Positions 12,504-30,724 of a stretch of 64,000 nt of DNA are shown one piece after another. The position numbers and the translations under genes were made by a program. The notes below the pieces were generated by a model. The model did no database searches and was not told the DNA's origin. It was given only the letters and a program-made list of their open reading frames with translations. Each line of letters starts with the position of its first letter. The stretch's first letter is position 1. The stretch comes from Bacillota bacterium (GTDB taxonomy: Bacteria; Bacillota; Sulfobacillia; JACIYH01): contig JASEFA010000011.1 in assembly GCA_030019365.1 (NCBI GenBank), forward strand, positions 1-64,000, in the 5' to 3' direction.

Positions 12504-12517
12504 TGCGCATGTCGCAG

Positions 12518-12616
12518 GTCCTGTTCCCTACGCTGGCATTACCCAGGTCAGGTTGTACGGGTCGAGGGCGTTCCAGCCCTCCTCTCAGCCCGGTCCCGTC
12601 GAGCTCCCCGCAAGAC
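12518..12616 (-). promoter_or_regulatory. TPP riboswitch (thi box)
   Basis: On the minus strand the conserved blocks appear in order: GGGGAGC, GGGCTGAGAGG, ACCTGACCTGGGTAATGCC and AGCGTAGGGAA. P1 pairs GTCTTG (12611-12616) with CAGGAC (12518-12523), including one G-U pair. It binds thiamin pyrophosphate and turns off cytX-thiE-thiM-thiL. The gap to the cytX start is about 160 bases. Confidence 0.95.
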
Positions 12617-12635
12617 GCCGTATTCACTTGCCTAC

Positions 12636-12843: not shown

Positions 12844-12873
12844 TTGACGCGAGGCAGGATGCGGTGATAGCAT
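12844..12873 (+). promoter_or_regulatory. Promoter of corA
   Basis: -35 TTGACG (12844-12849), 18-base spacer, -10 TAGCAT (12868-12873) preceded by TGA (extended -10). The predicted start is near 12880, leaving a leader of about 180 bases. Confidence 0.65.
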
Positions 12874-12879
12874 GGCGCG

Positions 12880-12994
12880 GGGACGGTGAACCCTAATGGA
12901 TGCAGACCGACCAGCATTAGCGAACCGCATCGAGGCCGGGCTCGCGGGAGGTGGGGCCGGGCGCTGATCCGCCCGGCCGGTGAGGTCGTGACGG
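12880..12994 (+). promoter_or_regulatory. Structured corA leader with a possible leader peptide
   Basis: Hairpin 1 pairs CTAATG (12893-12898) with CATTAG (12915-12920). Hairpin 2 has 9 perfect pairs, 12955-12963 with 12970-12978. A small frame from ATG 12896 (GGTGA six bases upstream) encodes MDADRPALANRIEAGLAGGG plus AGR, and its stop codon (12965-12967) lies in the loop of hairpin 2. A terminator follows. This is the layout of an attenuator controlling a Mg2+ or Co2+ channel. The sequence does not match the M-box or other riboswitch consensus sequences I know, so the signal sensed is unknown. Confidence 0.5.
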
Positions 12995-13018
12995 CGCCCT
13001 CCCGCAGGAGGGCGTTTT
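12995..13018 (+). terminator. Intrinsic terminator in the corA leader
   Basis: Stem CGCCCTCC/GGAGGGCG (12995-13002 with 13007-13014) with loop CGCA, followed by TTTT. It lies 45 bases before the corA start, so transcription of corA must read through it. Confidence 0.75.
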
Positions 13019-13062
13019 CTGTTGCGGCCTCGCGATCCGGCCGGTCGGAGGAGGTGGGCCCA

Positions 13063-14019
13063 GTGCTACGCGCATATCGTCAGATCCAGCAAGTGGCGCA
13101 TCCCGTAGAAGACTTCACCCAGCCCGGAACCTGGATACACCTGGTTGCCCCCACCCATGAAGAGATCGCCGCCGTGGCGGCGGCCACCGGGCTCCCCACC
13201 GACTTCCTGCGGGCAGCCCTGGACGAGGACGAACGGCCCCGCCAGGAGGCGGAAGGGGAGGAGGCACTGGTAATTATCCGTATCCCGGTGGCCCGATCCC
13301 CCCTCCAGCACACGACTATCCCTCTGGGCATCGCGGTAAGCCAGGGCTTTCTGGTAACGGTGTGCCTGGAAAAGACACCGGTGATAGACGGCCTGGTAGC
13401 ACAGGGGAAGGTGCACCCGACCAAGAAGACCAGGCTCCTGCTGCAACTCATGTACCACACGGCCAGGCTGTACCTGGACTACCTCGACCGCCTGGACCGC
13501 AAGGCCACGGACCTGGAAACCGCCCTCCGCCGCTCCATGCGTAACGAGGAGATGTTCCACCTCATGGAGATACAGAAGAGCCTGGTCTTCCTTACCACCG
13601 CCCTGCGCGCCAACCAGATTGTGATGGAGAAGCTGCTCCGCTCCCGGCTGCGCCCCGCCCGCGAGGGGGAGAACGGGGGATTGCCCCTGCGGCTCTACCC
13701 GGACGACGAGGATCTCCTGGAGGACGCCATTACCGAGAACCAGCAGGCGCTGTCCGCCGCGGAAGTGCACTCGAGCATCCTGAGCGGCACCATGGACGCC
13801 TTCGCTTCGATCATATCCAACAACCTCAACATCGTCATGAAGTTCCTCACCGCGGTAACCATCATCCTCGCCATCCCCACCGTGATCGGTACCTTTTACG
13901 GGATGAACGTGCCCCTGCCCCTGCAGCAGAGCCCCTTCGGTTTCGGGGTGATCGCAGGCGCATCCGCGCTGGCCGGTGGTGCGGCCGCGTTCCTGCTGTG
14001 GCGCCGGGGGATGCTCTGA
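13063..14019 (+). CDS. corA: CorA-family divalent metal channel
   Basis: A 318-residue protein with the two C-terminal membrane helices of CorA and the signature YGMNV (GMN at residues 280-282) at the pore mouth. The N-terminal two thirds form the cytoplasmic alpha/beta and long-helix funnel (YLDYLDRLDRKATDLETAL). CorA pentamers import Mg2+ and in some species Co2+ or Ni2+. I chose the GTG at 13063 because GGAGGAGGTGG lies upstream; the frame is open further upstream, but that part is the leader RNA with its terminator. Expression probably depends on the leader. It stands divergent from the thiamin operon. Confidence 0.88.
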   Translation: MLRAYRQIQQVAHPVEDFTQPGTWIHLVAPTHEEIAAVAAATGLPTDFLRAALDEDERPRQEAEGEEALVIIRIPVARSPLQHTTIPLGIAVSQGFLVTVCLEKTPVIDGLVAQGKVHPTKKTRLLLQLMYHTARLYLDYLDRLDRKATDLETALRRSMRNEEMFHLMEIQKSLVFLTTALRANQIVMEKLLRSRLRPAREGENGGLPLRLYPDDEDLLEDAITENQQALSAAEVHSSILSGTMDAFASIISNNLNIVMKFLTAVTIILAIPTVIGTFYGMNVPLPLQQSPFGFGVIAGASALAGGAAAFLLWRRGML

Positions 14020-30453: not shown

Positions 30454-30724
30454 GGGCCGTGCACCCGTCCCCGACCGCTCCCTCCGGGCGGTATCGGTGC
30501 AGCCGGCTCCGGCCAGGTAGCCCCGCGGCACACGGAAGTGCCCGCTTACCGCTGCTCCCTCCCGGGCCTGACGGGGTTCACGGGTTCCCGTTGCGCGGGA
30601 CCCGGCCCTCGTCGCCACTTGCACCGGCCGGACCCCACAGGAAGACGCCCTCAGACGGGAGTTCAACCCCGCTATAGCGGATTGCGGGTTACAGGGCACC
30701 GCTACCTCCCCGTCTAGCACGGCC
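30454..30724 (-). ncRNA. ffs: Signal recognition particle RNA, large (Firmicute) type
   Basis: About 270 bases with 5' and 3' ends pairing (GCCGTGC/GCACGGC). The Alu domain blocks GGGGAGGTAGCGGTGCCCTG and TAACCCGCAATCCGCTATAG are nearly invariant in Bacillus-type SRP RNA. Helix 8 is present as GTCAGGCCCGGGAGGGAGCA followed by GCGGTAAG with a GGGA (GNRA) loop. It sits between a serine tRNA and dnaX, its usual neighbourhood in Bacillota. Confidence 0.95.

Follow-up and report, generated by a model that had tools for sequence, protein, structure and literature searches.

The corA gene of this Bacillota genome is preceded by a leader that contains a small open reading frame and a terminator, and the locus raises the question of what such a leader would sense and how it could act on a Mg2+ channel gene. 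The window is here the whole 64,000-nt stretch of DNA that was analysed. The first-pass annotation had placed before corA a promoter, a 23-codon frame whose stop lies in the loop of a second hairpin, and a terminator 45 nt ahead of the gene, and all of these parts are present in the sequence:

12844–12873, + strand: sigma-70-type promoter of the leader/corA transcript (TTGACG at 12844–12849, an 18-nt spacer, TAGCAT at 12868–12873)
12885–12889, + strand: weak Shine-Dalgarno (SD) of the leader frame, GGTGA
12896–12967, + strand: leader peptide frame, 23 codons, MDADRPALANRIEAGLAGGGAGR, with the stop codon TGA at 12965–12967
12944–12951, + strand: element 2, GCGGGAGG, late in the leader frame; 5′ arm of a proposed antiterminator
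12955–12978, + strand: hairpin 2, GGCCGGGCG-ctgatc-CGCCCGGCC, with the leader stop codon in its loop; poorly conserved
12993–13018, + strand: intrinsic terminator, a 10-bp stem with a TTTT tail (weak U tract), 45 nt before corA
12998–13005, + strand: element 3, CCTCCCGC, overlapping the 5′ arm and loop of the terminator and forming 8 bp with element 2
13063–14019, + strand: corA-type Mg2+ channel gene with a GTG start; SD GGAGGAGG at 13047–13054

The + strand promoter-like site is one of two found, against 0.1 expected by chance, and the terminator-like site is a single one against 0.3 expected. No + strand gene that could own the terminator was seen upstream, and the genes adjoining the leader are divergent. 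The latter are thiamine-related and headed by a TPP riboswitch (12507–12620, − strand, 67.3 bits); elsewhere in the window, a large bacterial SRP RNA (30457–30722, − strand, 205 bits) lies beside a tRNA cluster. The corA product matches the Pfam CorA family (1.6e-51) and scores 100 bits against TIGR00383 (corA, NCBIfam), which is under the curated cut-off of 200.75, and the protein is therefore assigned to a divergent CorA subfamily. The genome encodes a second CorA homologue (L033), and inspection by eye of the sequence ahead of it showed no such leader.

The two hairpins announced by the annotation do exist, but their stability is not above chance: sequences of this dinucleotide content are expected to fold about as stably as the leader does (z −0.37), so that the presence of two hairpins is not evidence by itself. 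The leader had also been thought to belong to neither the M-box nor any other known metal riboswitch, and this stands, with no Rfam match to the leader at gathering or at relaxed E-value thresholds and no covariance match to the M-box (RF00380) in the leader or anywhere in its genome (G000). Matches to the 6C, RAGATH-5 and lncRNA families of Rfam were at chance level, under the cut-off, and were discarded. The signal above chance comes from the small frame, which recurs in front of Mg2+ transporter genes.

A DNA similarity search recovered the leader in one genome only, its nearest relative (G002); five other matches within the class, all short and weak, were set aside. Over its first 59 nt the G002 leader is identical to that of the window, and it has also preserved the promoter hexamers, both pairing elements (2 and 3) and the terminator. 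The pairing expected to persist in relatives fared unevenly there, hairpin 2 having two A-C mismatches and the 8-bp helix between elements 2 and 3 being unchanged. Beyond this relative, the frame is recognizable from its peptide start. A genome of the same genus with 80% CorA identity (G001) has the frame GTG-GAC-GCC-GAC (MDADQRGCRARHAYTGGG) with a terminator of its own and, ahead of its leader (L010), an equivalent promoter, TTGACG/TAAGAT; that with 65% identity (G409) has the frame MDADRQETNQPARRRNAGVLGVCPG and a terminator. Codons 2–4 read GAT GCA GAC in the window, GAC GCC GAC in G001 and GAC GCT GAT in G409, which are synonymous differences only, and over all loci MDAD is encoded by five distinct DNA words. 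The peptide starts persist through synonymous changes, while the remainder of the leader peptides diverges. In a scan of named genomes, such frames were seen ahead of corA in Negativicutes, Clostridia and other groups, among them MDADRPSSLK (L044), MDVDRPSSH (Propionispora), MDTDYPSPE (Anaerovibrio), MDIDPSRH, MEADPKYHIRN, MDSDPENR, MDADPSSRH and MDSGPEH. Conservation of the small frame thus extends to relatives well outside the genus, and the picture of a compact local unit gives way to one of an element recurring far outside the genome of the window, before Mg2+ transporter genes. A metal riboswitch of a new kind, with the small frame incidental to it, could account for the identical 59 nt in G002, but it is the least probable of the explanations weighed here, given that the leader has no Rfam match and that the peptide start is found again, spelled in synonymous codons, before both corA and mgtE in leaders that are otherwise dissimilar.

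The frequency of the frame was determined in 300 genomes drawn evenly from the phylum of the window, of which 82 encode a CorA of the window-type subfamily and 80 provided usable upstream regions. A frame was counted when it was SD-preceded, had 8–60 codons and carried Asp or Glu at position 2 with another acidic residue or Pro nearby. It was found in 41 of the 80 corA upstream regions, against 2.8 ± 1.4 (maximum 7) in 100 dinucleotide-preserving shuffles, and in 26–27 of 80 loci of a second corA set, taken from genome contigs, against 1.7 in shuffles; the rule was set after the first loci had been seen and the two sets share some genomes, and the gap between 41 and 2.8 is too large for either to matter. 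The frame is missing before roughly half of the corA genes in the phylum sample, and upstream regions of other genes at the same loci contain it in 8 of 219 cases (3.7%). An in-frame METDQ start in G030 and Ser/Glu/Pro frames of Sporolactobacillus were left out of the count. The latter kind, longer frames with runs of Ser, Glu and Pro, precedes corA at L052 and L058 (Sporolactobacillus and a Bacillus-labelled MAG; MSSHYCSEPEPES and MSSDSSSSKPGPS), and is possibly a divergent form of the Asp/Pro leader.

CorA and MgtE are unrelated proteins, both of which import Mg2+. A pattern scan of 47 genomes, most of them leader-bearing, returned five intergenic matches, four of them corA leaders and the fifth MDGDPRPPALTAA, ahead of mgtE (TIGR00400, 2e-129), the remaining matches being excluded as lying inside long coding frames. 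The frame is present in 20 of 30 mgtE upstream regions from near relatives of the query (2.0 in shuffles) and in 31 of 58 more distant ones (2.3 in shuffles), that is, in 51 of 88 (L208–L297) against about 4, many of them with a hairpin over the mgtE SD. Examples are MESVPWRS, MDSYPPS, MDGDPGSRR, MDADPGR and MDPGPSS. A stringent DNA pattern (an SD, then MD[G/A]DP), blind to gene context and modelled on known leaders, the four corA matches and one mgtE match among them, gave seven matches in the 300 genomes: four before corA, two before mgtE and one where a contig ends, from a genus that also supplied one of the mgtE matches. No match preceded a gene of another kind. With the pattern reversed, these genomes yielded 0 matches. 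Asp/Pro frames are associated specifically with the Mg2+ importers corA and mgtE. Some leaders are unusually long, with MDGDPGS or MDADPGS frames 295–392 nt upstream of corA (L133, L135, L043) or mgtE (L272, L281, L283); the G-labelled members of this set all belong to genus g136, in which both importers have such leaders.

These peptide starts also bear on classical amino-acid attenuation, in which the Asp and Pro codons would sense charged tRNA-Asp or tRNA-Pro instead of Mg2+. Sensing of tRNA-Pro has been proposed for the Pro codons of Salmonella mgt leaders, and both the position of the codons at the start of the frame and the terminator/antiterminator layout would suit such a device. However, there are two or three regulatory codons only, and the targets found are Mg2+ importers, not genes for Asp or Pro. 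In addition, Glu replaces Asp (MEADP, MEGDP) and the residues between vary among Gly, Ser and Ala, so that charge, and not a single tRNA, fits the pattern. We regard this explanation as quite unlikely.

Independent of the peptide, a sign of Mg2+ control comes from M-box riboswitches: of the 80 corA genes, 13 have one (132–159 bits) directly ahead of them. In 10 of these 13 loci (L140, L141, L146, L149, L150, L151, L159, L163, L172 and L188), the Asp/Pro frame begins just past the U run of the M-box terminator, and some transcripts therefore stack a Mg2+ riboswitch and a leader frame; L188 has a second terminator-like hairpin 3′ of the frame. The leader is found without an M-box at 36 loci, and a search of the 47 mostly leader-bearing genomes detected no M-box in 32 of them.

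The closest functional precedents are enterobacterial. MgtL, encoded before mgtA in E. coli and Salmonella, is likewise a short frame ahead of a Mg2+ importer gene (PMC11282234, PMC11552253), and Glu2 and Asp4 of its EPDP motif are needed for the effect (PMC11282234). In MgtQ, encoded before mgtB of Salmonella, Asp2 and Glu5 free the sequestered mgtB ribosome-binding site by a 1:2/2:3/3:4 logic, in which stems 1:2 and 3:4 alternate with 2:3 (PMC8092293). The window leader has acidic residues at positions 2 and 4 beside Pro, as in MgtL, and its Asp2, Asp4 and Pro6 are presumed to be the sensor residues. It is the resemblance of the start to MgtL and MgtQ that leads us to propose ribosome destabilisation at low Mg2+, although the window peptide start has just two acidic residues and one proline. 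The reading that we favour, at a probability of about 0.72, is that the window element senses Mg2+ by way of the ribosome, as a translational leader in the manner of mgtL and mgtQ; the evidence thus supports the annotation's idea of an attenuator-like leader with a peptide recalling mgtL.

From these comparisons we infer the response to Mg2+, the destabilisation of the ribosome and the actual RNA switch as follows. At adequate Mg2+ the whole leader frame would be translated and the ribosome would cover element 2; the terminator at 12993–13018 would then form and corA would be off, full translation switching the gene off as it does with MgtL. At low Mg2+, ribosomes would lose stability or be slowed at the acidic/Pro start (MDADRP) and would not reach element 2, which would be free to pair with element 3 as an antiterminator while RNA polymerase passes, allowing corA to be transcribed. 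Other Bacillota leaders of corA and mgtE may use the same peptide logic, often with SD sequestration in place of a terminator, and in some it would act downstream of an M-box.

The 8-bp helix of the window (12944–12951 with 12998–13005) overlaps the terminator (12993–13016 without the end of its tail) and is mutually exclusive with it, and G409 has an analogous pairing of GCAGGGG with CCCCTTGC. When transcripts ending at 13005–13009 were folded, the predicted probability of the antiterminator was 0.60–0.95 with a ribosome at codon 5 or 11, 0.2–0.7 at codon 3 or 8 and 0.000 at codons 13–20 (the frame was set one base too far 3′ in these calculations, which leaves the picture unchanged). For the complete leader, equilibrium folding favours the terminator whatever the ribosome state (0.86–1.0). 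As it always wins once its 3′ arm is made, antitermination would have to be kinetic.

Most other corA leaders contain no terminator and have instead a hairpin over the corA SD. The predicted accessibility of the SD is below that of shuffles in corA loci with a leader (p = 0.006) and not in those without (p = 0.78). Across 51 corA loci, complementarity between the late frame and the anti-SD arm exceeds that in shuffles (mean z −0.92 ± 0.26), with 15 loci below −1.5 and one above 1.5. In a swap test, pairing of the late frame with the anti-SD arm of its own locus was stronger than that of foreign frames (p = 4e-4), and pairing was likewise seen between the start and the late part of one and the same frame (p = 3e-6); these p values are optimistic because the loci are related to each other. 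This pairing suggests a 1:2, 2:3, 3:4 arrangement in corA leaders. For mgtE leaders, the late-frame/anti-SD swap test was not significant (p = 0.42). The difference in predicted SD accessibility expected between an early and a late ribosome was absent (corA, p = 0.52; mgtE, p = 0.08), and a cruder earlier version of that test went in the opposite direction (p = 0.02). A universal rule by which an early ribosome opens the SD and a late one closes it was confirmed by neither test and was dropped. Because the mgtE swap test and the accessibility prediction both failed, we infer, and do not observe, the switching mechanism.

The same pairing arrangement would serve equally well for a programmed stall, in which a ribosome is held at the Asp/Pro codons by an arrest peptide and Mg2+ or another divalent ion modulates the arrest. 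The 1:2 pairing (p = 3e-6) could re-form after a ribosome drops off and not under a stalled one. The sensor residues lie at codons 2–6, where there is almost no nascent chain in the tunnel, and known RAPP-type arrest motifs sit near the C-terminus (PMC12992588), which counts against a stall. This is the main rival to our reading, and an unlikely one. A frame that merely aids or dampens corA expression, without sensing, would fit the lack of a consistent switch in equilibrium folding, but we consider it very unlikely: the window terminator separates the frame from the gene, and the leaders are associated with M-boxes as well as with two Mg2+ importers that are not related to each other.

If the leader senses Mg2+ through the ribosome as proposed, it would be comparable in its action to known Mg2+ leader peptides. 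The window frame is an SD-preceded, short frame with an acidic/Pro start before a Mg2+ importer gene, as in mgtL, and its predicted output site is an intrinsic terminator, where MgtL acts through Rho-dependent termination; other Bacillota leaders would rely on intrinsic termination or SD sequestration. The Bacillota leaders differ further from MgtL in phylum and in target, corA or mgtE and not mgtA, and share no sequence relation with it past the acidic/Pro start. The likeness to MgtL and CorL leaders is confined to that start, which is too short for a test of common descent. Since the peptide is too short for such a test and the Rho-dependent output is replaced, the window leader was not filed in the mgtL family; the Bacillota leader would work like mgtL, with family identity left apart.

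MgtQ is the closest parallel to the SD-type leaders of Bacillota, but it has 8 amino acids, is enterobacterial and lies within the mgtCB operon, between genes, and the window version uses a terminator. The corL frame in the gammaproteobacterial corA leader, or corA motif, is inversely related to corA expression, but CorL has few acidic or Pro residues and a Rho-dependent output (PMC11552253, PMC6429828). The corA motif is confined to Gammaproteobacteria, and the window leader has no Rfam match. The M-box (ykoK) riboswitch controls Mg2+ importers in Bacillota and stands in series upstream of some frames, but it is an RNA aptamer and not a peptide, and is absent from the window and its whole genome. 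In Mycobacterium tuberculosis, an M-box is followed by the small frame rv1805A; this uORF is Rho-dependent and belongs to another phylum (PMC12810186).

In the literature searched, which left preprints and most subscription papers outside, Mg2+ leader peptides are described from enterobacteria, the gammaproteobacterial corA motif and the mycobacterial M-box-controlled uORF, and no such leaders are described in Bacillota; an earlier description of the Bacillota Asp/Pro leaders is possible. In the same literature, those acting through ribosome stability were known from enterobacterial mgtA, mgtB and perhaps corA. We consider it fairly probable that Bacillota own a phylum-wide, peptide-coded Mg2+ sensor, a ribosome-stability gauge serving corA and mgtE, whose outputs, intrinsic termination and SD sequestration, can replace each other, and which stands alone in most genomes and in series with M-boxes in others, and either independent of enterobacterial mgtL or long predating it. 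A single transcript can carry an Mg2+ riboswitch followed by a leader peptide presumed to read that ion too. If the view of a Bacillota sensor is true, Mg2+ control would be explained in genomes without an M-box, dozens of natural peptides would be at hand to test which nascent chains destabilise ribosomes, and ribosome destabilisation would be a general bacterial gauge of Mg2+.
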